Assembly (NCBI RefSeq): GCF_003634695.1
Contig: NZ_RBWV01000013.1
Coordinates: forward strand, 248,001-312,000
Direction: 5' to 3'
DNA from: Motilibacter peucedani
GTDB lineage: Bacteria > Actinomycetota > Actinomycetes > Motilibacterales > Motilibacteraceae
Length of the DNA stretch: 64,000 nt
Shown here: positions 38,538 to 56,682 of the stretch, one piece after another
Position numbering within the stretch: the stretch's first letter is position 1
Layout of the letters: each line of letters starts with the position of its first letter
Program-made: the position numbers and the translations under genes
The notes under the pieces: model-generated
Seen by the model: only the letters and a program-made list of their open reading frames with translations
Told to the model about the DNA's origin: nothing
The model's database searches: none

Positions 38538-39833
38538 CTACCGCGGTCCCTGCGAGGTGCGGATCCCGGCGAGCACGTCGGCGCCCTCGGCCCGAGGCGC
38601 CGCGAGCGTGCCGGCGGCGCTCGGAGCGGTCACCCGGCCCGGCGCCCAGCCGCGACGGCGACCGCGCGGCAGGACCAGCGCCACCACTGCCAGCAGGGCC
38701 GCTGCGCCCAGGCCGGCGGCGGCGAGCACCACGCCGATCAGCGACGTGCGGTGTGCGTGCCTCGGGACGGGCAGTGCAGCGGCGGCCACCGGGGGAGCAC
38801 TGTGCACCCCCGCCGCGCCCTCGGCGGGCAGGACCGCGGTCACCGCCGCGTACGGGTCGACGACGCCGGCGCCCACCCCGGCGTCCCGGCCCGCGGGCGG
38901 TGCGTCGGCGGTCGCCTCGATGCGGGCGACGACCTGGGCCGCGGTGAGCTGCGGGAGGTAGGCGCGCACGAGGGCGACGGTGCCGGCGACCAGGGGAGTC
39001 GCGAAGCTCGTCCCGGTCACGACGGCGTAGCGGCCGGGACCGTTCGCGCCCGCCACCACGACCTGCTGGCCCGGCGCCGCGACGTCGACGTAGTCCGCGG
39101 CGTGCGAGGTGTCGGCCCGCGCGTCCGCTGAGTCGGTCGCGGCGACGGCCAGGACCTCGGGGTAGGCCGCCGGGTAGTAGGTCGGGGGCGTCGAGCCGTC
39201 GTCGCCCGCCGGGCGGGTGCCGTCGTCGTTGCCGGCCGCCGCGACCACCACGACGTCGTGCGCGACGGCGTAGTCGACGGCGGCCTTCAGCGCCGGAGTG
39301 CTGCCTTCCGCGGTCGCGGAGATGTTGATGACCCGAGCTCCGGCGGCGACCGCCGCCCGGATCGCGGTCGCCATGCCGTTGGTCGTGCCGCGCGGCTGGC
39401 CCTGCTCCAGCCGCTCGGTCTGGCGGATCGAGAGCACGCGGGCCTCGGGCGCGATGCCGGCGAACGGCGTACCGGCCAGGACCCGGCCGGCGACCAGGCT
39501 CGCGACCTCGGTGCCGTGCCCGCTGCAGTCGACGCCGGACCCGCCACCGGGACGGCCGAGCACGTCAGGTCCGACGTCGACGGCGCCCCGCAGGTGGGGC
39601 GACGTGGCGTCGACGCCGCTGTCGATCACCGCCACCGTCACGCCCGCTCCGCGCGTCAGCGGCCACACCCGCCCGGGCTGGAGGCGGCTCTGCTGCCAGG
39701 GGCGCGCGACCTGCTGGTCCGGCGTGGTGGCGCACCTGCTGGTGGCGGCTCGTGCGGGAGCGAGAGGCACGCCGCCTACCACGGGCACTGCGGCCGCCGC
39801 CAGCAGTGCAGCAGCGCGGAGCAGGGCTCGCAC
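38538..39833 (-). CDS. Second mycosin-type subtilisin protease (copy 2)
   Basis: 431 residues: signal peptide to about residue 30 (LAPARA), S8 domain and a C-terminal membrane anchor (about 360-385) with a cytoplasmic tail of about 45 residues. Catalytic residues: Asp in VTVAVIDSGVD, His in DCSGHGTEVAS, Ser in VTGTSFATPLVAG. It is as complete as copy 1 but only distantly similar to it. GTG 39833, with GGAGG ten bases upstream, is used. It sits between two paralogous lipoprotein genes in the effector operon, so it probably processes that operon's substrates. Confidence 0.92.
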   Translation of the reverse strand: MRALLRAAALLAAAAVPVVGGVPLAPARAATSRCATTPDQQVARPWQQSRLQPGRVWPLTRGAGVTVAVIDSGVDATSPHLRGAVDVGPDVLGRPGGGSGVDCSGHGTEVASLVAGRVLAGTPFAGIAPEARVLSIRQTERLEQGQPRGTTNGMATAIRAAVAAGARVINISATAEGSTPALKAAVDYAVAHDVVVVAAAGNDDGTRPAGDDGSTPPTYYPAAYPEVLAVAATDSADARADTSHAADYVDVAAPGQQVVVAGANGPGRYAVVTGTSFATPLVAGTVALVRAYLPQLTAAQVVARIEATADAPPAGRDAGVGAGVVDPYAAVTAVLPAEGAAGVHSAPPVAAAALPVPRHAHRTSLIGVVLAAAGLGAAALLAVVALVLPRGRRRGWAPGRVTAPSAAGTLAAPRAEGADVLAGIRTSQGPR

Positions 39834-39859
39834 GGGAACTCGTCCTCCGGCCAGGGTGC

Positions 39860-40495
39860 TCAACCCGTCGAGGCGGACGGGGTCGCGCTGCCGGAGAGGG
39901 GCAGGTCGAAGGCGAAGTCGTAGTTCGCCAGGATCGTGCCGCTCTCGGCGCCGTCGCGCACGTCGACGTCCAGGGTGAGGAAGTCCTGCTGGAGACCTTG
40001 CACGACCCCGAGCCCAGAGCCGGGGCCGGCGCCGTCCGTCGATCCGGGCTCCGGTCCGGCGGTCCGCGTCAGGGCGTCCTGGTCCAGGCGCAGCACTGAC
40101 TGCTGCGCCCACAGTGCCTTGCCGAGCTCTTCCCGAGAGTGGAACTTGGCGTTCACGACGAGCTCGCTGGGCTCGGCTTTGGGCCCGCCGGCCGCGAGGA
40201 TGGCCAGCCGGTACGCCGTGATGCGGGTCGACCCCCCGCCAGGCAGCAGGACCGTGACGTCGATGCCCTTGCTCGAGTCGGCCGCCGCGGCGCTCGAGCC
40301 CTGCTCGCCGTCACGCAGGTGCAGGCTCGCCCGTGTAGGCCGCTGCGTGAGGTCGAGGGTCACCTTGTCGTCCTTGACCAGGGGATCCTTGTCGGCGGTG
40401 CTGCTACCCACGCTCACGCTGCATGCTCCAGTGGTGACGACGACGGCGGACAAGGCTGCCGCGCACAGCGCGCGGCGGGAGGTGTGGCGACTCAT
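39860..40495 (-). CDS. T7SS-linked lipoprotein, copy B
   Basis: 211 residues with signal VVVTTGACSVSVGSS (Cys about residue 25). Paralogue of the 37858-38535 protein. ATG 40495 overlaps the stop of the large effector gene (ATGA), giving translational coupling with it, as expected for an immunity protein or an effector-specific receptor. The -3 residue of the lipobox is Thr, slightly atypical, in both copies. The function is not known. Confidence 0.8.
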   Translation of the reverse strand: MSRHTSRRALCAAALSAVVVTTGACSVSVGSSTADKDPLVKDDKVTLDLTQRPTRASLHLRDGEQGSSAAAADSSKGIDVTVLLPGGGSTRITAYRLAILAAGGPKAEPSELVVNAKFHSREELGKALWAQQSVLRLDQDALTRTAGPEPGSTDGAGPGSGLGVVQGLQQDFLTLDVDVRDGAESGTILANYDFAFDLPLSGSATPSASTG

Positions 40496-42186
40496 CCGAT
40501 GGTCACGTCGAAGCCGCCGTGCAGGTGCCAGTCGGTGAAGAACCTACGCAGGATGTCGTCCCACTGCGACGCGAGCCGCTGCTGGTCGACACGGGTGCCG
40601 ACGTCAGAGGCCACCAGGTCCCTCACCTCCTGCGGGTGCTCGCGGAGCAGAGTCGTGTAGGCCGGCAGCGTATCGTTGATGATCATGTCCCAGCGCGGGT
40701 CCTTCGACGAGATGTTGAAGTCGGGCAGCGGGGTGTCGAGGGTGACGGTCGCGTCTGCGTGCCCGACGAACGGGATGTCGATGACCGGCACCTTGGCGCT
40801 GACCGACAGCGGGCTCACCTCGGCAGGCGTGTGGGCCCCCGGGATCGAGGGCGCCCCGACCATCGTGAGCAGGTAGGTGAAGGCCTGCCCGGTGACCGGG
40901 TGGTTGCGCATCGCGTCGTACTGGTCCGGGATGATGATGTTCTGCTCGCGGCTCAGCAGCGTCGTGTTGCCGGCGTCGAGCAGGGCGGTGTTGCCGGTCG
41001 CGGCACCGTCGTGGATCTGCTGCCACGCGTTGGTCGTGGCACGGTCGGTGATGCCGGCGTCCTGGAGCTCCTTGATGGCGTCCATGCCGCCGTCGAGGTA
41101 GGCCTCGTGCATGCCGCCCTGGTCGAAGAAGATCTTCTTCTGCATGGCCAGGAAGGTGTTCTCGTAGAACGCCACCTCGTCACCGCCGGCGTTCGCCAGC
41201 GCGGCCATCTGCTTGAGCTCCTCGGGCAGGGCGTCGCGCACCGGGCCGGGCAGCTTGTCGATGCGCTTCTGCAGCTCGCGGGCGAGGTTCTGCACCATGT
41301 CGAGGTCGAGGAACCCGCCGGCGAACGACGGCCCGATGAGGTTGGCCATCCCCGCCCACTGCAGCTCGGGGTGCTGCAGGAACAGGTTGCCGTAGTAGCG
41401 GTAGACCGCCAGGATCGCGTCGGGGTTGCCGGACGCGCCCTTCGTCGGGTCCCAGGCCTCGAGGTCGATGCCGGCTTTCTGCGCCGCGACCGCTGCCCAG
41501 TACTGCCGCAGCAGCCCGGAGTAGTCCGCCGGCGACATCCCGGACGAGCGGGCGAGGTCGAGGAGCCGCTTGAGAGCCGCGGGGTCGGTGGGGAGGTCGG
41601 GCACCGGGCCGCCCGCCTTGGCGCCGTCGCCGTTGGTGACGGCGTCGTTGCCGAAGGGTGAGGACGGCACCTGCATGACAGCGGAGGTCGGCGCGACCTC
41701 GGCTGCGGCGCGTACGGCTGTGGCGGCGTTCGCGCCCGCTTGCTCCACCGCGTCGCGGGCGGAGGAGAGCGACGAGAGGGCCGCGGTGCGCTTCCCCTCG
41801 CCAGGGTCGGTGAAGGGTCCGGTCTGGGTGCCGGCGCTGACCGCCGAGTTGTAGTCGTTGACCGCCTTGTTGGTGTCGGCGACGGCGTCGTTGTAGCTCG
41901 ACAGGGCCGTGGCGGCCTTCTTCTGGGCCGACTCGAGCGCGTCGGCGTAGTGGTCCACCGCGGTCGAGGCCTTCGACATCGCGGAGCTGGCGTCCTCCCA
42001 CGCGGTGGCGATCCGCTGCTGGGTGGCGCGCCACGCCTGCTCGGCCGCGCCCTCCCACGGGCCGGTCGACGCCTTGCGCACCGCGGCCGCGGTGTCGCCC
42101 ATGGCGGTGCCGGCGCCGCGGAGCTCCTGCGCGTAGCCGCGGAGGGCGCCGGGGTCGCCGGGGACCGAGAAGTCAGGACCGCTCAC
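40492..42186 (-). CDS. Large WXG-domain T7SS effector candidate
   Basis: 564 residues, no signal peptide. The N-terminal ~100 residues form a WXG100-like helical hairpin (TGPWEGAAEQAW, about residue 42). A helical linker precedes a globular region (about 250-564) with motifs FLQHPELQWAGMANLIG, YENTFLAMQKKIFFDQGG and HEAYLDGG; the overall spacing reminded me of DUF2515, a family of unknown function, but that needs a profile search. GTG 42186 overlaps the preceding stop (GTGA). The gene is coupled at both ends, between a small WXG-like protein and a lipoprotein. Confidence 0.82.
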   Translation of the reverse strand: MSGPDFSVPGDPGALRGYAQELRGAGTAMGDTAAAVRKASTGPWEGAAEQAWRATQQRIATAWEDASSAMSKASTAVDHYADALESAQKKAATALSSYNDAVADTNKAVNDYNSAVSAGTQTGPFTDPGEGKRTAALSSLSSARDAVEQAGANAATAVRAAAEVAPTSAVMQVPSSPFGNDAVTNGDGAKAGGPVPDLPTDPAALKRLLDLARSSGMSPADYSGLLRQYWAAVAAQKAGIDLEAWDPTKGASGNPDAILAVYRYYGNLFLQHPELQWAGMANLIGPSFAGGFLDLDMVQNLARELQKRIDKLPGPVRDALPEELKQMAALANAGGDEVAFYENTFLAMQKKIFFDQGGMHEAYLDGGMDAIKELQDAGITDRATTNAWQQIHDGAATGNTALLDAGNTTLLSREQNIIIPDQYDAMRNHPVTGQAFTYLLTMVGAPSIPGAHTPAEVSPLSVSAKVPVIDIPFVGHADATVTLDTPLPDFNISSKDPRWDMIINDTLPAYTTLLREHPQEVRDLVASDVGTRVDQQRLASQWDDILRRFFTDWHLHGGFDVTIG

Positions 42187-42485
42187 TCGGGCAGCCCCCG
42201 CCGGATCCGGTCGACCTGCTCCTGCAGCTTGAGGTCGGTCTCGACGTAGCGCAGCGCGTTGGCGCGCAGCCCGTCGCCGGCGCGGGTCGTGTCGGTGTCG
42301 AGGGCCGTCACGCCCTGCTTCCAGGCCGCGGACATCGCGGACAGCGCCCCAGCCAGGTCGGCGTGCCCGACCGCGCCCTCTCCCGGCGCCGCGCCGCCCG
42401 CTGCCTGCACGCCTGGTGCGGGCGCGTCGCGCACGGCGCTGGCGGCGTCGAGGAGCACGTCGCTGTCGACACGAAGATCAGACAC
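42183..42485 (-). CDS. Small WXG/EspC-like T7SS partner
   Basis: 100 residues; helical, starting SDLRVDSDVLLDAASAVRDAP with a C-terminal YxxxD signal (YVETD, about residue 79). First gene of the leftward five-gene effector operon, coupled to the large effector by a GTGA overlap. Probable heterodimer partner that provides the export signal for the effector, which lacks its own YxxxD motif. Confidence 0.82.
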   Translation of the reverse strand: MSDLRVDSDVLLDAASAVRDAPAPGVQAAGGAAPGEGAVGHADLAGALSAMSAAWKQGVTALDTDTTRAGDGLRANALRYVETDLKLQEQVDRIRRGLPE

Positions 42486-45878: not shown

Positions 45879-46092
45879 CGACGTGGACTCCTTCGCACGC
45901 CGCCGAAACTACCGCGCAGCCCGGCGCGTAGCCGTTGGTCGACGCTCCGTGCCGATCTTCGCGCAGGTGGAGGTCATCCACAGTTCGATCGGGTGAGCGC
46001 CCACGCGTACCGGCTTTCGGCCTACTTTCTCCACCGCACCCTGTACGTCGTCCGGGGAGCCCCGGTGTCCGTTCGGCTGGAGGGTGGGTCAG

Positions 46093-47316
46093 GTGCACGC
46101 GTCGAGCGTCGTCGAGGACGAGGTCCGCGAGCTGGTCCGCCGCCGCGGCATCGACCCGGCGAGCGAGCAGGCGGCCGTTCGCCGCCTGGTCGACGACGTG
46201 ATCGCCGACTACGACGAGCGCAGCCTCGACGGCTCGCTGCCGGCCCTCCTCGACGCCCGCGGCACCGCACGGGACGTGTTCGACGCGGTGGCGGGGCTCG
46301 GCCCGATCCAGCGCTACCTCGACGACCCGACGGTCGAGGAGATCTGGATCAACGAGCCGAACAAGGTGTTCATCGCCCGGCACGGGGTGGCGGAGCTGAC
46401 CACGACGATCCTGACCGCCGAGGACGTGCGTGACCTGGTCGAGCGGATGCTCAAGCCGTCGGGCAGGCGCATCGACGTGAGCTCCCCGTTCGTCGACGCA
46501 TCGCTGCCCTCGGGCGCCCGCGTGCACGTCGCGATCCCCGACATCACGCGGGCGCACTGGTCGGTCAACATCCGCAAGTTCGTGGTGCGCGCGACGCACC
46601 TCGACGACCTGGTGGGCCTCGGCTCGTTGACCGCGCCGGCCGCGCGGTTCCTGGAGGCGGCGGTCGCGAGCGGGCTCAACATCCTGGTCGCGGGCGGCAC
46701 GCAGGCGGGCAAGACGACGCTGCTGAACTGCTTGCTGGCAGCGGTCCCTCCGCGCGAGCGGGTCATCACCTGCGAGGAGACCTTCGAGCTGAAGGCTCCG
46801 TTGAACGACATCGTGGCGATGCAGTGCCGGCAGCCGAGTCTCGAGGGCACCGGCGAGATCAAGCTGCGCCGCCTGGTCAAGGAGGCGCTGCGCATGCGCC
46901 CGAGCCGCATCGTCGTGGGCGAGGTGCGCCAGGAGGAGAGCCTCGACCTGCTCATCGCCCTCAACAGCGGCCTTCCCGGCATGTGCACGATCCACGCGAA
47001 CAGCGCCCGCGAGGCCGTGCAGAAGCTGTGCACCCTGCCGCTGCTCGCCGGCGAGAACGTGACCCACCAGTTCGTCGTCCCCACGGTCGCGTCCTGCGTC
47101 GACCTCGTCGTGCACGCGGCCACCGAGGCCGACGGCACCCGGCGGGTGCGGGAGATCGTCGCGGTGCCTGGCCGGGTCGAGGGCGACGTCGTCGAGACGG
47201 CCGACATCTTCACGACCCGCGACGGCCGGCTCGTGCGTGCCGAGGGCTGGCCGCCGCACCAGGAGCGATTCGCCCGCAGCGGCTTCGACCTCGCCCGACT
47301 ACTGCAGGCGGCCTGA
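46093..47316 (+). CDS. Tad/Flp pilus secretion ATPase (TadA/CpaF)
   Basis: 407 residues, T2SSE-family ATPase. Walker A GGTQAGKTTLL (about residue 203), the Asp box and Walker B VVGEVRQEESLDLL with MCTIHANSA are the CpaF pattern. Typically drives both assembly and retraction of Flp pili. GTG 46093 is chosen because GGAGG at 46079-46083 sits nine bases upstream; the in-frame GTG at 46084 would have no spacer at all. First gene of the Tad operon. Confidence 0.93.
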   Translation: MHASSVVEDEVRELVRRRGIDPASEQAAVRRLVDDVIADYDERSLDGSLPALLDARGTARDVFDAVAGLGPIQRYLDDPTVEEIWINEPNKVFIARHGVAELTTTILTAEDVRDLVERMLKPSGRRIDVSSPFVDASLPSGARVHVAIPDITRAHWSVNIRKFVVRATHLDDLVGLGSLTAPAARFLEAAVASGLNILVAGGTQAGKTTLLNCLLAAVPPRERVITCEETFELKAPLNDIVAMQCRQPSLEGTGEIKLRRLVKEALRMRPSRIVVGEVRQEESLDLLIALNSGLPGMCTIHANSAREAVQKLCTLPLLAGENVTHQFVVPTVASCVDLVVHAATEADGTRRVREIVAVPGRVEGDVVETADIFTTRDGRLVRAEGWPPHQERFARSGFDLARLLQAA

Positions 47317-47319
47317 GCC

Positions 47320-48180
47320 ATGGGTGCCCTGATCGGTCTCGCGTTCGGCGCGGGCCTGCTGCTGGTGTGGCTGTCGTTCGGCCCGCCCCGGGAGCCGAAG
47401 CCGCGCACGACCCCGCGCCTGTCCGAGCGGATGTCCGACATGCTCGCCCAGGCGGGCGTCGAGTCGGTGACGCCGCTCGCCCTGGTCGGCGCGTGCGCCG
47501 GCACCGGCGTCGTCGTCCTGCTGGTGATGGCGCTGGTGTCGCACTCACCCGTGGTGGCGACCGCGTTCGCCAGCATGGCCGCCTACGCGCCGCTCGGGCT
47601 CGTCCGGATGCGCCAGCGCAAGCGCCGTGCCGACCTGCGCGAGCTGTGGCCCGAGGTCGTCGACAATCTGGCCAGCGGCGTACGCGCCGGGCTCTCGCTG
47701 CCCGAAGCCCTGACCCAGGTGGGCGCGCGAGGCCCGGAGCAGCTGCGCAGCCACTTCGTACGCTTCGGCGAGGACTACCGCGCCACCGGGCGCTTCGGCC
47801 CGTGCCTCGACCGGCTCAAGGCCTCGCTGGCCGACCCGGTCGGCGACCGCATCGTCGAGTCGCTGCGCCTCGCGCGCGAGGTCGGCGGCTCGGACCTCGG
47901 GCGGCTGCTGCGTACGCTGTCCGGCTTCCTGCGCGAGGAGGCGCGGGCCCGCGCCGAGCTGCAGGCCCGCCAGAGCTGGACCGTCAACGGTGCCCGGCTC
48001 GCCGTTGCAGCACCCTGGCTCGTCCTCGGCCTGCTCGCCTTCAACCCCGACGGTGTCGCGGCGTTCAACTCGGCGGCCGGGGCGGTCGTGCTGCTCGTGG
48101 GCGGTGGCGTCTGCCTGCTGGCCTACCGGCTGATGCTGCAGATCGCACGCCTGCCCGAAGAAGAGCGGGTGCTGCGATGA
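47320..48180 (+). CDS. Tad pilus inner-membrane assembly protein (TadB)
   Basis: 286 residues with a membrane segment at each end (about 2-18 and three later) and a central T2SSF domain (LRELWPEVVDNLASGVRAGLSLPEAL). Follows the ATPase gene by three bases. TadB and TadC form the inner-membrane platform for the pilus. Confidence 0.9.
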   Translation: MGALIGLAFGAGLLLVWLSFGPPREPKPRTTPRLSERMSDMLAQAGVESVTPLALVGACAGTGVVVLLVMALVSHSPVVATAFASMAAYAPLGLVRMRQRKRRADLRELWPEVVDNLASGVRAGLSLPEALTQVGARGPEQLRSHFVRFGEDYRATGRFGPCLDRLKASLADPVGDRIVESLRLAREVGGSDLGRLLRTLSGFLREEARARAELQARQSWTVNGARLAVAAPWLVLGLLAFNPDGVAAFNSAAGAVVLLVGGGVCLLAYRLMLQIARLPEEERVLR

Positions 48181-49112
48181 GCCGCAGCCTGCTCGGGGCA
48201 CTGCTCGGCCTGGTCGCCGGCTTCGGCGCGGTGACCGCGTTCTGGCGGCTGCCGGTGTTCCGCCGTCCGCGGCTGGACGACCGGCTCGCCCCCTACCTGC
48301 GCGACACGCCACGGGTGTCCCGGCTGCTGCAGGAGTCGCGCTCTCTCACGCCGTTCCCGACTCTCGAGCGCATCGTCGGTCCGGCGGTGCGCGACGCCGC
48401 TCGCGTGCTCGAGAACGTGCTCGGTGGCAGTGCTTCCGTGCGCCGCAAGCTCGAGCAGTCGGCGAGTCCGCTGAGCCTCGAGCAGTTCCGTGCCGAGCAG
48501 GTGCTGTGGGGTGCCGCCGGTCTGGGTGGCGGGCTCGCTCTCTCGCTCGCGATGCTCAGCAGCGGCAAGGGTCGACCTGTCCCGCTGGCGCTGCTCTGCC
48601 TCGTCGCAGCAGCCGGGGGAGTGCTCGCGCGCGACTACTGGCTCGGGGCCCAGGTGACCAAGCGCGAGCAGCGCATGGTGCAGGAGTTCCCGACCGTCGC
48701 AGAGATGCTGGCGCTCGCCGTCAGCGCCGGTGAAGGGGCGGCCGGAGCGCTCGAGCGCGTCTGCGGCCTGAGCTCCGGCGAGCTGACCCGCGAGCTCTCG
48801 CGTGCGCTCGCCGACGCGCGAGCCGGCGCGTCGCTCGTGACCGCGCTGCAGGGCGTCGCTGCCCGCACGTCGCTCGCCCCGCTCGCCCGCTTCGTCGACG
48901 GCGTCGCCGTCGCCGTCGACCGGGGAACGCCGCTGGCCGACGTGCTGCGCGCGCAGGCCACGGACGTGCGCGAGCTCGGCAAGCGCGACCTGCTCGAAGC
49001 CGGTGGCCGCAAGGAGATCGGGATGATGATGCCTGTCGTCTTCCTCGTGCTCCCGGTCACGATCGTCTTCGCCCTCTACCCCGGCGTCGTCTCGCTCGAC
49101 ATCGCCGGCTGA
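48177..49112 (+). CDS. Tad pilus inner-membrane assembly protein (TadC)
   Basis: 311 residues, T2SSF domain (EFPTVAEMLALAVSAGEGAAGALERV) with an N-terminal membrane segment and three C-terminal ones. ATG 48177 overlaps the tadB stop (ATGA). Paralogue and partner of the preceding gene product. Confidence 0.9.
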   Translation: MSRSLLGALLGLVAGFGAVTAFWRLPVFRRPRLDDRLAPYLRDTPRVSRLLQESRSLTPFPTLERIVGPAVRDAARVLENVLGGSASVRRKLEQSASPLSLEQFRAEQVLWGAAGLGGGLALSLAMLSSGKGRPVPLALLCLVAAAGGVLARDYWLGAQVTKREQRMVQEFPTVAEMLALAVSAGEGAAGALERVCGLSSGELTRELSRALADARAGASLVTALQGVAARTSLAPLARFVDGVAVAVDRGTPLADVLRAQATDVRELGKRDLLEAGGRKEIGMMMPVVFLVLPVTIVFALYPGVVSLDIAG

Positions 49113-49148
49113 TCACCGCAAACCGCAACCACGAAGGAAGACCTCTTC

Positions 49149-49361
49149 ATGTCCGCCTCCCTCGCCCTGACCAGGGCAGTCCACTCGCTCGCCGCCCGAG
49201 CGGCTGCGGCCGCCGACTCCGACGACCGCGGCGACGTCCCGGCCTGGGTCTTGATCACCGTCATGACCGCGGGCATCGTCGGCGTGCTGTGGACCTTCGC
49301 CCAGGACCAGCTCCACGACCTCCTGGACGACGCCTTCACCTCGGCCACCTCGAAGCACTGA
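49149..49361 (+). CDS. Flp-type pilin
   Basis: 70 residues. Short N-terminal leader followed by a hydrophobic stretch (DRGDVPAWVLITVMTAGIVGVLWTF, residues 26-50) then a short acidic tail, the pattern of actinobacterial Flp pilins. The prepilin processing site should lie before the hydrophobic helix. AAGGAAG lies about eight bases before ATG. It is the expected main structural subunit. Confidence 0.88.
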   Translation: MSASLALTRAVHSLAARAAAAADSDDRGDVPAWVLITVMTAGIVGVLWTFAQDQLHDLLDDAFTSATSKH

Positions 49362-49364
49362 CCC

Positions 49365-49769
49365 GTGCGGCCGCCGGCACTGCGACGCGCGCTCCACGAC
49401 GACTCGGGCGCGGCGGTCGTCGAGTTCTGCCTGGTCGTCGCGGTGGTCGTGCCGATGGTGCTGGCGATCCTGCAGTTCGGCCTCGTCCTGCACGTGCGCA
49501 ACACGCTGCAGGCCGAGGCGGCCGAGGGCGCGCGCGTGGCCGCGGCCGCTGACCGCACGCCGGTCGACGGCCGCGTCGCCACCGCCTCGCTGGTGAGCGG
49601 CTCCTTCGGCAGCGGGCTCGGCCAGCACGTCACCGCGGGCACCTCGTCCGACGACGGGCTGCCGACGGTCTGGGTGCGGGTGCAGGCCGACCTGCCGCTG
49701 GTCGGCTGGCTCGCCGGCGTCGACGGCGGCATCGACGTCACGGCGCACGCCGTGGACGAGGGTGCATGA
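49365..49769 (+). CDS. TadE-like pilus pseudopilin
   Basis: 134 residues: basic N-terminus then a TadE signature DDSGAAVVEFCLVVAVVVPMVLAILQ (glutamate after the processing region, followed by a membrane helix), then an exported beta domain. GTG 49365, three bases after the pilin stop. TadE-like proteins are processed by the prepilin peptidase and join the pilus. Confidence 0.9.
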   Translation: MRPPALRRALHDDSGAAVVEFCLVVAVVVPMVLAILQFGLVLHVRNTLQAEAAEGARVAAAADRTPVDGRVATASLVSGSFGSGLGQHVTAGTSSDDGLPTVWVRVQADLPLVGWLAGVDGGIDVTAHAVDEGA

Positions 49770-50191
49770 CCCCCGTCGACGAGCCGGTGACCACCGACGG
49801 CGGCAGCGCGCTGATCGAGACGGTGTTCCTGGCCGTGCTGCTGCTGGTGCCGCTGACGTGGGTGATGCTGGCGGCGTTCTCGGCGCAGAACGCCTCCTAC
49901 GCGGCGGCCGCCGCCGCTCGCGAGGGCAGTCGCGCCTACGTCACGACGCAGGGCGACGCGGACGCCGCCGCTGAAGCCCGGGCACGCGCCGCTGCCCACC
50001 TCGTCATGACGGACTTCGACGCCTCGTCGAGCCGCGAGCGCATCGCCGTCTCGGGCAGCCTGGCGCCCGGCAGCTTCGTCACCGTCACCGTCCGCACCCG
50101 CGTGCCGCTGCCGTTCCTGCCGGGCTTCCTCTCCCACGCCGCCGTGCCCGTGCGTGCACAGGCGCTCGCCGTCGTGGACGAGTACCGGTGA
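49766..50191 (+). CDS. TadE-family pilus assembly protein
   Basis: 141 residues, again TadE-like: GGSALIETVFLAVLLLVPLTWVML near the N-terminus, then an exported domain. ATG 49766 overlaps the previous stop (ATGA). It is distinct from the preceding TadE-like protein, so the operon has at least two minor pseudopilins. Confidence 0.88.
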   Translation: MTPVDEPVTTDGGSALIETVFLAVLLLVPLTWVMLAAFSAQNASYAAAAAAREGSRAYVTTQGDADAAAEARARAAAHLVMTDFDASSSRERIAVSGSLAPGSFVTVTVRTRVPLPFLPGFLSHAAVPVRAQALAVVDEYR

Positions 50192-50631
50192 GGCGGCTGC
50201 GCGGCGACGACGGCTCGATCACGCCGCTGCTCCTGGGCTTCGTCGCCATCCTCGTGGGGCTGGTCGCGGTGATCACCGACTCGTCGGCCGCCTTCCTGGC
50301 CCGTCGCTCGCTGGTCGCCGCCAGCGACGGCGCGGCGCTCTACGCTGCCGGCGCCCTCGACCGCGACCGCCTCTACGACGAGTCGCTGACCCGGCTGCCG
50401 ATCGAGGCGAGGAGCGCGCGGTCGCGCGCCACCGCGTACCTCGCCCGCACCGACCTCGACGAGCACTACCGCTCCGTACGCGTGCGCTCCGTCGACCTGG
50501 ACCCGGGCGCCACCAGCGTCACGGTCGAGCTCACGGCTACCGTCGCGCTGCCGTTCGTCGGCCGCATCAGCGGCGGGCGCCGCACCCTACGCATCACTGC
50601 GTCGTCGACCGCGCACTCACCGCTGCGCTGA
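50188..50631 (+). CDS. TadG-like membrane-anchored pilus protein
   Basis: 147 residues: short basic N-terminus, DDGSITPLLLGFVAILVGLVAVITDSS membrane anchor, then an extracytoplasmic domain. GTG 50188 overlaps the previous stop (GTGA). This layout is that of the Rv3660c-adjacent TadE/G-like proteins at the end of actinobacterial Tad operons. Confidence 0.85.
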   Translation: MRRLRGDDGSITPLLLGFVAILVGLVAVITDSSAAFLARRSLVAASDGAALYAAGALDRDRLYDESLTRLPIEARSARSRATAYLARTDLDEHYRSVRVRSVDLDPGATSVTVELTATVALPFVGRISGGRRTLRITASSTAHSPLR

Positions 50632-51193: not shown

Positions 51194-51220
51194 TCAAGTC
51201 CGCGTCGCAGGTGCCGAAGA
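51194..51220 (+). promoter_or_regulatory. Sigma-28 (FliA/SigD/WhiG)-type promoter of the chemotaxis pair
   Basis: TCAA (51194-51197), 15 bases, then GCCGAAGA (51213-51220) closely match the motility sigma consensus TAAA-N15-GCCGATAT. It lies about 48 bases before the GTG of the sugar-binding gene, in a gap with no other promoter that I can see. This fits coordinated expression of a chemoreceptor with the flagellar regulon. Confidence 0.7.
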
Positions 51221-51268
51221 GAACTCCGCGTCCCCGGTAGGCGGGGTCCGTGGTTCCTGGAGGATCTC

Positions 51269-52354
51269 GTGCGGTCTAGTTCACTTCGGTACGCGGTGGC
51301 GGGCGTCGCCCTCGCGTGCAGCCTCGCCGGCTGCTCCGGCTCAGGGTCCGGCGCGGCCGCCGAGGCGCCCGCCGTCACCGTCGGCGTCGCCATGCCGCAG
51401 GGCGACTCGCGCTGGGCGAGCGACGCGGACAACATGGTCAAGCAGCTCACCGCGCTGGGCTACAAGACCGAGGTGACCAACGCCGACAAGGCGCCGGCGA
51501 CCCAGGTGACGCAGATCCAGGCCATGATCGACCACGGGGACAAGGCGCTCATCGTCGGCTCCGTCGACGGCGGTGCCCTCAAGGACGTCCTCGCCAAGGC
51601 TGCGGCGAAGAAGATCCCGGTCATCGCGTACGACCGCCTCATCACCGGCACCAGCGACGTCGACTACTACGCGACCTTCGACAACGCGAAGGTCGGCGTC
51701 CTGCAGGGCCAGGCGCTGCTCGACGGGCTGAACGTGGCGAAGGCGACGCGCCCGCTCAACATCGAGGTCTTCGCAGGCGACCCCAAGGACAACAACGCCG
51801 GCTTCTTCTTCGACGGCGCGATGAGCGTGCTCAAGCCTTACATCGCCTCCGGCAAGATCAAGGTCGTCAGCGGCGAGACCGAGTTCGCCAAGGTCGCGAC
51901 GCCCAACTGGGACGGCAAGACTGCCCAGGCCCGCATGGAGAAGCTGCTCGCCGGCCCTGACGCGGGCGTGACGCTCGACGGCGTGCTGGCCCCCAACGAC
52001 GGCCTGGCCCGCGGCATCCTCGCGGCGCTCGGCGAGAAGGGCTACGGCGCCGCCGGCAAGCCGTGGCCCGCGATCACCGGCCAGGACTCCGAGCTCGAGT
52101 CGGTCAAGCTGGTCGCCTCCGGCGAGCAGACCGAGACCATCTTCAAGGACACCCGTGAGCTGGCCAAGGTCGCCGTGCAGATGACCAACGCCGTCCTCGA
52201 CGGCGACACCGCGCGCGTCAACGACACCAAGCAGTACAACAACGGCGTCAAGGTCGTGCCGACCTTCCTCCTCCAGCCGGTGAGCGTCACGAAGGCCAAC
52301 TACCAGGGCGTCCTGGTCGACAGCGGCTACTACAAGAGCAGCGACCTCTCCTGA
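51269..52354 (+). CDS. ChvE-like sugar-binding lipoprotein, probably for chemotaxis
   Basis: 361 residues. Lipoprotein signal ending [10 protein letters not shown] (Cys about residue 22), then a type-I periplasmic binding fold ([59 protein letters not shown]). This sequence style is that of ChvE/XylF-type binding proteins for aldose monosaccharides. There are no permease or ATPase genes alongside; the next gene is a chemoreceptor. GTG 51269 has GGAGG six bases upstream. Confidence 0.9.
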
Positions 52355-52427
52355 GGCTGCGCACGTCCTGACCACCCCGCATCCCCTCAGGTCCGCGCGC
52401 GCGGACGCAGAACCAGGAGCCAGTCGC

Positions 52428-54032
52428 ATGGGTACCACGCCCGCCCCCCTCCCGAGCCGCCTCGCCGGCTCGTTCCTCGACCGTCCCGTACGCGTCAAGC
52501 TCGTCGCCCTCGTCGTCGCCAGCCTCCTGGCGCTCGCTTCGTGCGTCGCCGTGACCGCGAAGACCAACCGCACGGCTGCCCAGACCTCCGAGCAGCTGCG
52601 CAACCTCAACTCCGCCGCGGCGCTGGTCCTCCAGCTCGACCGGCTCGCCAGCGAGCTCAAGGTGGACGGGCTGCAGGCGATCGTCCGACCTGACCCGGCC
52701 GCGCAGGTCCAGGTGCTGCAGGACCAGATCACGCGCACCAACACCACCCTGGACCAGTTGACCGCCGCCGAGCTGCCGAAGGCGCAGAAGGCCGGCGTGC
52801 AGACGCTGAAGGACGTCTACACCGACTACGAGGGCGTCATCACCCGCTTCGTGAAGAACGCCGGTGCCGACCCGGAGACCGCTCGCCTGTCGTGGGAGCA
52901 GATCGACGTCGACAACTACCTCGTCAGCGCCGTGCTGAAGAACAACCGCGACAGCTTCTCGAAGGCCGTCGCCCACGCGGAGAAGGCCGCCGCCGCGCAG
53001 CGCAGCAGCGCGACGCACCTGCTGTGGTTCGTCGTGGTCCTCGCGGCCTTCGTGGTCTGCCTCATCGCGTACGTCGTGGTCGTCTCGATCACCCGCCCGC
53101 TGCGCAAGGTTCGGGCCTCGCTCGAGGCGATGGCCAAGGGCGACCTGACCGTCTCGGCCGACGTGCCGCACCAGGACGAGATGGGCCAGATGGCCCGCGC
53201 GCTCGACCAGGCGCTCGCCGGCATCCGCGAGGTCGTCGGCTCGGTGTCGGGCTCCGCCCACGCCGTCGCCGCCGCTGCCGAGGAGATGTCCTCCACCGCC
53301 GCCGCGATGAGCTCGTCCGTCAACGAGTCGGGGGAGCAGGCCCGCCGCGTGTCCGACTCCGCCGCCGAGGTCTCCTCCAACGTCCAGACTGTCGCCACCG
53401 GCGCCGAGGAGATGCGCGTCTCGATCGACGAGATCGCCCACAACACCAACGAGGCCGCCCGCGTCGCCAGCCAGGCCGTGCAGCTCGCCGAGTCGACCAC
53501 GGCGCAGATCGGCAAGCTCGGAGCCTCCAGCACCGAGATCGCCACCGTCGTCAAGGTCATCACCACGATCGCCGAGCAGACCAACCTGCTGGCGCTCAAC
53601 GCGACGATCGAGGCCGCTCGGGCCGGCGAGTCGGGCAAGGGCTTCGCCGTCGTCGCCAACGAGGTCAAGGAGCTGGCGCAGGAGACCGCGCGGGCCACCG
53701 AGGACATCGCCAAGCGCGTCATGGCGATCCAGAGCGACACCGAGGGCGCCGTGTCGGCGATCGGCGAGATCAGCGCCGTCATCAGCCAGATCAACGACTT
53801 CCAGACCACGATCGCCAGCGCGGTCGAGGAGCAGACGGCCACCACCGCCGAGATGAACCGCAGCGTCGCGGCCGCCGCCGCCGGCGCCGCGGGCATCGCC
53901 GACAACATCGCCGGCCTGGCCGACGCCTCGCACGTCACCACCGCCGGTGTCGCCCAGTCCAAGGAGGCCGTCAGCGAGCTCAGCACCATGGCCCACGAGC
54001 TGCAGACGATGGTGTCGCACTTCCGCTACTGA
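52428..54032 (+). CDS. Methyl-accepting chemotaxis protein (chemoreceptor)
   Basis: 534 residues. TM1 at about 22-42, an extracytoplasmic four-helix sensor of about 150 residues, TM2 at about 200-222, a HAMP domain (about 223-275, [21 protein letters not shown]), then the signalling helical hairpin with the conserved tip [35 protein letters not shown]. It should control CheA. Probably co-transcribed with the preceding binding protein, which would dock on its sensor domain. Confidence 0.95.
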
Positions 54033-54049: not shown

Positions 54050-54072
54050 ACGTTGATCACGTACGTTGATCA
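54050..54072. repeat. Two direct copies of ACGTTGATCA
   Basis: ACGTTGATCA occurs at 54050-54059 and 54063-54072, 13 bp apart, directly before the terminator stem. The second copy overlaps a GTTGATCAAC palindrome. Their role is unknown; a regulatory site is possible. Confidence 0.45.
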
Positions 54073-54075
54073 ACA

Positions 54076-54113
54076 GGGCGCCAGCCGTAGGAGATCTCCT
54101 ACGGCTGGCGCCC
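54076..54113. terminator. 38-bp perfect palindrome, terminator
   Basis: A perfect inverted repeat of 19+19 bases centred on GATC, with no unpaired loop beyond the central bases, followed on the + strand by CCTTTGC. It lies 43 bases after the chemoreceptor stop and 33 bases before the convergent ABC ATPase stop, so it may terminate both. The self-complementary centre also allows cruciform formation. Confidence 0.85.
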
Positions 54114-54146: not shown

Positions 54147-54884
54147 TCAGCCCGTGACGCGGCGCAGGAAGCGCTGCGTACGCGGGTCGGCCGCCCGCTC
54201 GAAGACGTCGGCCGCGGTGCCGCGCTCGGCCACGACGCCGGACTCGAGGAAGCACACCTGGTCGGCCACCTGGCGGGCGAACGACATCTCGTGCGTGGCC
54301 AGCACCATCGTCATGCCCTCGTCCTTGAGCTCGCGGACGACGTCGAGCACCTCGCCGACGAGCTCTGGGTCGAGCGCGCTGGTCACCTCGTCGAGCAGCA
54401 GCAGCTTGGGCCGCATGGCCAGGGCGCGGGCGATCGCGGCGCGCTGCTGCTGGCCGCCGGAGAGCCGGTCGGGGTAGTCCTTCGCCTTGTCGGCCAGCCC
54501 GAACCGCTCGAGGAGCCGGCGAGCCTCGGTCTCGGCCTCGGCGCGCCCGTTACGCCGCACCTTGCGCGGAGCGAGCGTGACGTTGTCGAGCACCGAGAGG
54601 TGCGGGAACAGGTTGTAGGCCTGGAACACGATGCCGATCTGCTGGCGCACCGAGTCGACGTCGACGCGCGGGTCGGAGATGTCGCTGCCCTCCAGCCACA
54701 CCACGCCGTCGTCGACGACCTCGAGCAGGTTGACGCAGCGCAGCAGCGTCGACTTGCCCGACCCGCTCGCGCCGATGAGCGCGGTGACCGAGTGGGCCGG
54801 CACCTCGAGGTCGATGCCCCGCAGCACCTGGGTGGCGCCGAAGCTCTTGCGCACCTGCTCGAGGCGCAGGAGCGGCTCGCTCAC
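54147..54884 (-). CDS. Polar amino acid ABC transporter ATPase (GlnQ-like)
   Basis: 245 residues. Walker A GASGSGKSTLL (about residue 38), Q-loop, signature LSGGQQQRAAIARALAMRPKLLLLDEVTSALDP and the H-loop THEMSFARQVAD are complete. The GTG start overlaps the permease stop (GTGA). Powers uptake through the two neighbouring components. Confidence 0.95.
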   Translation of the reverse strand: MSEPLLRLEQVRKSFGATQVLRGIDLEVPAHSVTALIGASGSGKSTLLRCVNLLEVVDDGVVWLEGSDISDPRVDVDSVRQQIGIVFQAYNLFPHLSVLDNVTLAPRKVRRNGRAEAETEARRLLERFGLADKAKDYPDRLSGGQQQRAAIARALAMRPKLLLLDEVTSALDPELVGEVLDVVRELKDEGMTMVLATHEMSFARQVADQVCFLESGVVAERGTAADVFERAADPRTQRFLRRVTG

Positions 54885-55735
54885 AGGACGTTCCCGTGCA
54901 CCGGCAGGCCGCCCGAGCGGGCCGCGACGTAGTCGGTGAGCCGCGTCATGGGGATCGTGAGGGCGACGAACACCAGCCCGGCGACCATGTAGGGCGTGAA
55001 GTTGAACGAGCGCCCGGTGATGATGGCTGCCGCCTGGATCGCGTCGGTCGCCCCGAGGATCGAGACCAGGCCCGAGTCCTTCTGCAGCGAGACGAGGTCG
55101 TTGAGCAGCGGGGGCACCACGCGCCGGACCGCCTGCGGCAGCACGACGTGGCGCATCGACTGGCCGTAGCTGAGCCCCAGCGACCGGGCAGCGGCCCGCT
55201 GCGAGGGGTGCACCGACTCGATGCCGGCCCGGAAGACCTCGGCGACGTAGGCGGAGTAGGTCAGCACCAGTGCGGCGCCGCCCCAGAACACCACGCTGTC
55301 GGTGACGCCCGTCAGCCGCAGCGCCGGCACCCCCAGGCCCAGCAGCAGCAGCACCAGCAGCAGCGGGATCCCGCGGAACAGGTCGGTGTAGACCGCCGCG
55401 AACAGCCGCAGCGGGAACGCGACCGGGCCACGCAGCGTACGCATCACCGCCAGCGTCAGCCCGAGCGCCAGGATGCACACCTCGCAGACCACCATGAGCC
55501 GCAGGTTGAGCCACAGCCCGCGCAGGACGTCGGGCAGCGCCTCCTTCGCGTAGTGGGCGCTGAGGAACGACTCGCGGAACGGCGGCCACCCCGGCGCGCT
55601 GGTGACCAGCGCCACCACGACCGCGAGCAGGACCAGCGTCGTCAGCGCGGCGACGGCCGTCGAGCGGCGCGAGCGCGCGCGCCGGTAGCGCTCGCGCTCG
55701 AGCTGGCGGGCGGAGGGGGTGTAGGCCTCGCTCAC
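54881..55735 (-). CDS. Polar amino acid ABC transporter permease
   Basis: 284 residues; an N-terminal membrane segment (about 27-47) and a HisM/GlnP-type permease core with the EAA-like loop (SVHPSQRAAARSLGLSYGQSMRHVVLPQA). One permease gene serves as a homodimer in this family. The start overlaps the binding-protein stop. Substrate class: polar or charged amino acids. Confidence 0.94.
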   Translation of the reverse strand: MSEAYTPSARQLERERYRRARSRRSTAVAALTTLVLLAVVVALVTSAPGWPPFRESFLSAHYAKEALPDVLRGLWLNLRLMVVCEVCILALGLTLAVMRTLRGPVAFPLRLFAAVYTDLFRGIPLLLVLLLLGLGVPALRLTGVTDSVVFWGGAALVLTYSAYVAEVFRAGIESVHPSQRAAARSLGLSYGQSMRHVVLPQAVRRVVPPLLNDLVSLQKDSGLVSILGATDAIQAAAIITGRSFNFTPYMVAGLVFVALTIPMTRLTDYVAARSGGLPVHGNVL

Positions 55736-56682
55736 TCTCCGAACACCGGCGCGCCGACCGTCTTGGCGAGCCACTGCGACTGCAGGTCGGCGAGGGTGCC
55801 GTCGGTACGCAGCGAGTCGACCGCCGCGGTGACGCACGAGGTGAGCGCGCTGCCCTTCTCGAGCACCATGCCGAACTGCTCGCCGCCCGACTCGGCCGGG
55901 AACTGGCCCACGATCTTCGCGTCGGGGATCTCGGCCGCGGTGATGTAGAAGGCGGTGGGGAGGTCGACGGCGAGGCCGTCGATCTGGCCGTTCTTGAGCG
56001 CCGCCTTCGCGATGTCGTTGGTGCGGTAGGCCGCCACCTTGTGCGTGGGCTTCACGACGTCGGTCAGCGTCTGGTAGCTCGTGGTGCCGATCTGCCCGCC
56101 GAGCTTCGCGGACTTGAGCTGGGCGACCGTGGTGGCGCCGGCGATGGGGGAGTCCTTGCGCGCGATGACCGCCTGGGCGACGTCGTAGTAGCCCGAGCTG
56201 AAGTCGACGACCTTCTTGCGCTCGTCGGTGATCGACACCTGGTTGATGTCGACGTCGAACTTCTTGCGGCCCGGGGTGGCCACGCTGTTGAAGGGCGCGA
56301 CGATCCACTTCACGTCGGTCTTGGCGAAGCCGAGGCGGTCGGCGACGGCGTAGGCGACCGCGGACTCGTAGCCCTGGCCGTTGCTCGGGTCGTCCTTGGC
56401 GAACCAGGGGTCGTAGGCCGGCTTGTCGGTGCCGACGGTCAGCGTGCCCTTGGTGCGGGTGGCGAGCGAGTCCTTGGTGCACGAGGCCGGCAGGGCGGCG
56501 GAGCTGTCGCTGGGTGCGGCGCTGGCGGCGCCCGTGTCGGCCGGCGAGGGGGAGGTGAGGACCGGCGAGGACGCGGCCGGAGCGCTCGAGGAGGACGGCG
56601 CTGTCGAGTCGTCCTTCTCCTGGGCGCAGGCGGTGACGGCCGAGGCGAGGGCGGCGATGGCGACGAGCGAGCGGAGCTTCAT
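55732..56682 (-). CDS. Amino acid ABC transporter substrate-binding lipoprotein
   Basis: 316 residues. Signal ending [11 protein letters not shown] (Cys about residue 19), a Ser/Pro/Ala-rich tether to about 68, then a family-3 bacterial solute-binding domain ([49 protein letters not shown]). ATG 56682. The three genes are one leftward operon with a -10/-35 promoter upstream. Confidence 0.94.

Follow-up and report, generated by a model that had tools for sequence, protein, structure and literature searches.

A ChvE-type sugar-binding lipoprotein and a chemoreceptor without a transporter, behind a motility-sigma-type promoter box in Motilibacter peucedani

Binding-protein-driven sensors and the locus

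Chemoreception driven by a binding protein is already known from E. coli Trg and Agrobacterium ChvE. The Trg partners MglB and RbsB also work for importers, with genes not linked to trg, and Agrobacterium ChvE also serves the GguAB importer. Trg is an MCP (methyl-accepting chemotaxis protein) with a periplasmic sensor domain to which these sugar-binding proteins are presented, and it is cited for ribose and galactose in PMC6321045. Agrobacterium ChvE docks on a sensor and underlies the chemotaxis of this bacterium towards galactose, glucose, arabinose, fucose and xylose (PMC4086400). Gram-positive bacteria also have sensors of this kind, XylFII-LytS and GlnH-GlnX (PMC6321045, PMC9769921). In the Clostridium system XylFII-LytS (5xsj/5xsd), a sugar-binding protein docks on a four-helix-bundle sensor, with XylFII associating with helices H3 and H4 of LytS (PMC9769921). 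GlnH-GlnX of Corynebacterium is an actinobacterial case, in which a binding lipoprotein acts via a membrane protein that contains a four-helix-bundle module (PMC9769921).

The window analysed here is a 64,000-nucleotide stretch of the Motilibacter peucedani genome (contig NZ_RBWV01000013.1, positions 248,001 to 312,000). An earlier note, made from the letters alone, had described in it a TCAA-N15-GCCGAAGA box of motility-sigma type ahead of a ChvE-like binding protein, followed by an MCP and a terminator, with neither permease nor ATPase. All of these elements were recovered (Table 1). The box lies exactly where it had been placed, the MCP gene with HAMP and MCP signalling domains follows the lipoprotein gene after an intergenic gap of 73 bp, and a hairpin of 17 pairs stands just past the end of the MCP gene at 54032. 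The unit contains neither permease nor ATPase, the nearby convergent importer being of another class.

Table 1. Features of the pair and its immediate surroundings (positions in the window)
Feature	Position	Strand	Remarks
Sigma28/FliA/WhiG-type promoter-like box	51194..51220	+	-35 TCAA 51194-51197, N15, -10 GCCGAAGA 51213-51220
ChvE-type sugar-binding lipoprotein, receptor-linked (putative sensory) paralogue	51269..52354	+	361 aa, GTG start, lipobox LAGC, Cys22
Methyl-accepting chemotaxis protein	52428..54032	+	534 aa: TM1, sensor ~44-197, TM2, HAMP 220-267, MCP signalling domain
Distal helix-4 motif WEQx3DNYLx2AVx2NxRx2F, candidate docking site	52893..52958	+	MCP codons 156-177
Terminator-like hairpin between convergent units	54076..54113		17-bp stem
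Amino-acid-type ABC importer, convergent	54147-56682	-	ATPase 54147-54887, BPD_transp_1 permease, SBP_bac_3 binding protein

Compared with these systems, the locus is best read as following the module logic of Trg/MglB and ChvE, but uncoupled from uptake. Whereas Trg borrows its partners, the window has a dedicated binding-protein paralogue co-encoded with the receptor; and whereas Agrobacterium ChvE is periplasmic, its counterpart here is a predicted lipoprotein beside a presumed receptor, with GguAB not found in the genome. XylFII-LytS ends in a histidine kinase, in contrast to the chemotaxis output proposed here, and GlnH-GlnX differs in its amino-acid ligand, its PknG kinase output, an unrelated binding-protein family and the lack of chemotaxis. 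The variant seen here, in motile actinobacteria, is a sensing paralogue that is tethered to the membrane, free of transport and encoded together with a receptor of its own; the partial literature searched yielded no account of such a pair. The statement that such units are rarely described in Gram-positive bacteria fits that partial literature, but binding-protein-driven sensor domains as such are known there from XylFII-LytS and GlnH-GlnX.

We consider it roughly 75% probable that the pair is a dedicated sugar chemotaxis module that depends on the binding protein and is under sigma28 control, as had been proposed, and the occurrence of the pair without a transporter in five other genomes, together with a receptor-linked ChvE clade, supports this. 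The motility sigma factor would transcribe both genes; the lipoprotein, held at the outer face of the membrane, would close on an aldose-type monosaccharide; and the closed form would dock on the adjacent receptor's four-helix bundle, at the distal part of its helix-3/helix-4 face, a step suggested by the XylFII-LytS analogy and the distal helix-4 motif. Docking may then alter CheA activity via the HAMP and signalling domains, as expected from what is known of the MCP family. The binding protein, presumably a split-off copy of a ChvE that belonged to a ChvE-GguA-GguB importer, would now serve sensing only. Sequence evidence backs the pair, its linkage, the promoter class, the lipoprotein signal, the receptor architecture, the lack of a cognate permease in the assembly and the sensory clade. 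The proposal is physiologically plausible, since Agrobacterium ChvE mediates sugar chemotaxis (PMC4086400) and sugars attract the zoospores of Actinoplanes (PMC3569393). The literature searched gave no receptor for the Actinoplanes response; the pair, with only two genes and a defined sensor motif, is a compact candidate.

The binding protein and its missing transporter

The lipoprotein gene has a GGAGG ribosome site ahead of its GTG start. Its product falls in the CUT2 sugar-binding protein class (Peripla_BP_4, PF13407, 3.2e-60) and has Agrobacterium ChvE as its closest solved family, matching 3urm at 1.6e-106 in a sequence search; XylFII is not among the sequence matches listed for it. The predicted structure (mean pLDDT 88) superposes on 3urm with a Z of 43.9 and an rmsd of 2.2 over 328 residues at 54% identity. 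On the NCBIfam ChvE equivalog NF040907 it scores 453 bits, 7 short of the cut-off of 460, and the paired orthologues score 458-506 bits. The family has a GguA/GguB importer as its partner, and no GguB was found in the genome. We therefore file the protein as ChvE-like, outside NF040907, which describes an ABC transporter binding protein. The positions RW, DR, DNN, QD and KD, which from general family knowledge we take to be sugar contacts, are invariant among 14 relatives as a candidate pocket; together with the ChvE homology, this points to an aldose-type monosaccharide as the probable ligand. The sequence also supports a lipoprotein tethered outside the membrane.

No ChvE-type permease GguB was found genome-wide in an assembly of 17 contigs reported to be 100% complete, the best candidate reaching 157 bits where the cut-off is 450. 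The genome has 12 CUT2 permease (BPD_transp_2) hits, none of them a ChvE-type GguB, and the best pairwise permease scores stay below 80 bits, compared with 410-434 between true MmsB/GguB of different phyla. All five relatives with the pair do have GguB, at 501-534 bits. Because no such permease was found, the binding protein is, as far as the assembly tells, an orphan for transport.

Seven ChvE-MCP pairs were identified in six genomes, with constant gene order and no adjoining transporter genes: one each in the window's own genome, in G001 and G002 of the same family, in Kineosporia mesophila and in G404, and two in G215. The pairs of G002, Kineosporia and G215 sit in differing gene contexts. 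Most other ChvE relatives fetched belong to ChvE-ATPase-permease loci, and each of the five other pair genomes carries, elsewhere, a canonical ChvE-GguA-GguB operon with its own ChvE. A 23-protein tree places the seven receptor-linked ChvEs in one clade with support of 100/99, and the transporter copies of these genomes fall outside it; support was only 74/84 in a first tree without those transporter copies. In a set of ten receptors the paired MCPs likewise group together (100/100). Since their clade excludes the transporter copies, the receptor-linked ChvEs are best read as a probable sensory paralogue split from the importer ChvE. Residues E84, N85 and E286 are strictly kept in transporter ChvEs (T88 and E316 nearly so) but lost in the sensory ones, and such positions may face the permease. 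Having transport and sensing copies in one genome gives a natural comparison that separates permease-docking from receptor-docking surfaces.

These comparisons bear on the objection, raised in the earlier note itself, that the binding protein might partner with a distant permease; this could be an ABC permease of XylFGH-like or other CUT2 type, fed besides or instead of the receptor. The objection loses its most direct form with the absence of the cognate GguB, although one of the 12 other CUT2 permeases could in principle serve. A XylF-type system does lie at C10:376-380 kb, and Agrobacterium ChvE does both, uptake being general knowledge and sensing being described in PMC4086400. However, the closest permease adjoins its own binding protein, the sensory clade has lost residues that transporter ChvEs strictly keep, and that clade is receptor-linked in six genomes, so we regard a role in uptake as unlikely.

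For a binding protein dedicated to sensing, we lean, with some reserve, towards a history in which an ancient ChvE duplication gave rise to a membrane-tethered, sensing-only clade, now a cassette with a four-helix-bundle chemoreceptor across motile actinobacterial families, with sensing uncoupled from uptake. The importer would since have gone in the window's lineage, leaving the sensing copy alone. The separate uptake and sensing copies in the relatives suggest how such swimming actinobacteria might smell sugars. The two pairs of G215 have near-identical MCPs and clearly different ChvEs, as if two sugar catchers of differing range served one receptor type.

The receptor and a candidate docking face

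The receptor scores above the cut-offs for both HAMP (43.5 bits) and MCPsignal (110.5 bits), which places it among the MCPs. Pfam gave no sensor-domain match in the four LBDs scanned, and a sensor profile run against the sequences of solved structures found nothing meaningful. AlphaFold2 predicts the sensor as a four-helix bundle with helices at 21-86, 90-113, 118-145 and 149-236 (mean pLDDT 77, a single-chain prediction from a two-sequence alignment). Its fold matches include the sensors of Tar, Tsr, PcaY and MCP2201, and the LytS sensor bound to XylFII (5xsj, Z 15.8). Z is 15-17 to known four-helix-bundle sensors versus ~13 for unrelated helical bundles; as helical bundles match easily, these matches support the fold and not the function.

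The best-conserved stretch of the sensor is distal helix 4, where 14 of 29 residues are invariant in six receptors. The motif in this stretch is intact in six of the seven paired receptors, the seventh (G404) reading W-Q-Q instead of W-E-Q, and it is absent from all nine unpaired relatives. Because XylFII binds LytS on H3/H4 (PMC9769921), the distal helix-4 stretch is a candidate docking face for the binding protein. Strong sensor-domain matches are scarce, with 18 of 394 genomes of the class at E 1e-8 (mostly distant), two of 299 genomes of G215's family at 1e-25, and the window's own genome alone among 396 genomes of the phylum at 1e-20. The idea that the distant sensor relatives are also ChvE-paired was rejected, as none of those inspected adjoins a ChvE gene and several lie in che clusters.

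The receptor might instead sense a small ligand of its own directly, as the four-helix-bundle sensors Tar, Tsr and PcaY do, in which case the adjacency of the binding protein would reflect co-regulation only. This seems to us quite improbable: the adjacency is kept at seven loci in differing gene contexts, the sensor motif is confined to paired receptors, and co-regulation alone does not need a ChvE-type partner each time.

The promoter box and the surroundings

The sugar chemotaxis module that we favour also calls for transcription with the motility genes. The box, with a -10 reading GCCGAA, lies 75 bp 5' of the lipoprotein GTG. TCAAG-N14-GCCGAW, which has the same spacing as TCAA-N15, occurs once in the window against 0.02 expected from shuffles, and TCAA-N15-GCCGAW has ~23 matches across the 4.19 Mb genome. 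Besides the window's own, five boxes stand at most ~150 bp ahead of the genes for flagellin, CheA and three further MCPs, whereas ~0.008 such coincidences are expected in twenty 150-bp upstream windows, a number that we set to cover 14 MCP genes, 5 flagellin-like genes and cheA. A sigma70 promoter scan gave no match. The genome has two FliA/WhiG-class candidate sigma genes (C9:276733 and C10:27896), one of them within a flagellar gene region. Since the box is common to flagellin, cheA and other MCP genes, both genes of the pair are probably transcribed by the motility sigma factor along with these, as the promoter assignment had implied. The box starts 10 bp past the stop codon of a flavin reductase gene on the same strand, so read-through into the pair is possible.

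Related boxes precede other pairs, TCAA-N15-GCCGAC in G001 and TCAG-N15-G[CT]CGAT in G404 and at both copies of G215. A relaxed TCA[AG]-N15-G[CT]CGA thus lies upstream of five of the seven sensory chvE genes against a background of 0.011 per 200 nt, a count that is suggestive only, as the relaxed -35/-10 letters were picked after inspecting the sequences. A clear, strict box was looked for upstream of the G002 and Kineosporia pairs (two of the seven promoters) and none was found. An intergenic TCAAG-N14-GCCGAT at C10:492942-492966, 81 bp ahead of the gene for a 414-aa protein, marks a candidate member of the motility regulon.

It is very unlikely that the receptor drives another CheA-linked output, such as type IV or Tad pili, rather than swimming: Tad-like genes at 46-50.6 kb and a boxed PilM-like gene would favour this, but the promoter box is common to flagellin and cheA, and the pairs of G002, Kineosporia and G215 occur in other gene contexts.

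Downstream, the region flanking the terminator-like hairpin folds 7.7 sd below shuffles (z-score -7.7), and a second small hairpin, GTTGATCACGTACGTTGATCAAC, at 54053-54075 directly precedes it. The amino-acid-type importer beyond is separate from the sensing unit, since it is of a different class, has its own binding protein, is convergent and has the hairpin in between.

The Tad/Flp-pilus-like cluster just upstream of the pair, recognised by eye, spans 46084-50631 (+) and includes a CpaF-like ATPase, TadB/C-like and TadE-like genes; Tad-like pilus genes are also found near the pair in G001. The PilM-like gene has a TCAA-N16-GCCGAT box just ahead of it at C10:501858, a hint that the motility sigma factor may also act on pilus genes. 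At 38538-42485 (-), a subtilisin/mycosin-like protease beside WXG100-like proteins resembles, by eye, part of a type VII secretion locus.
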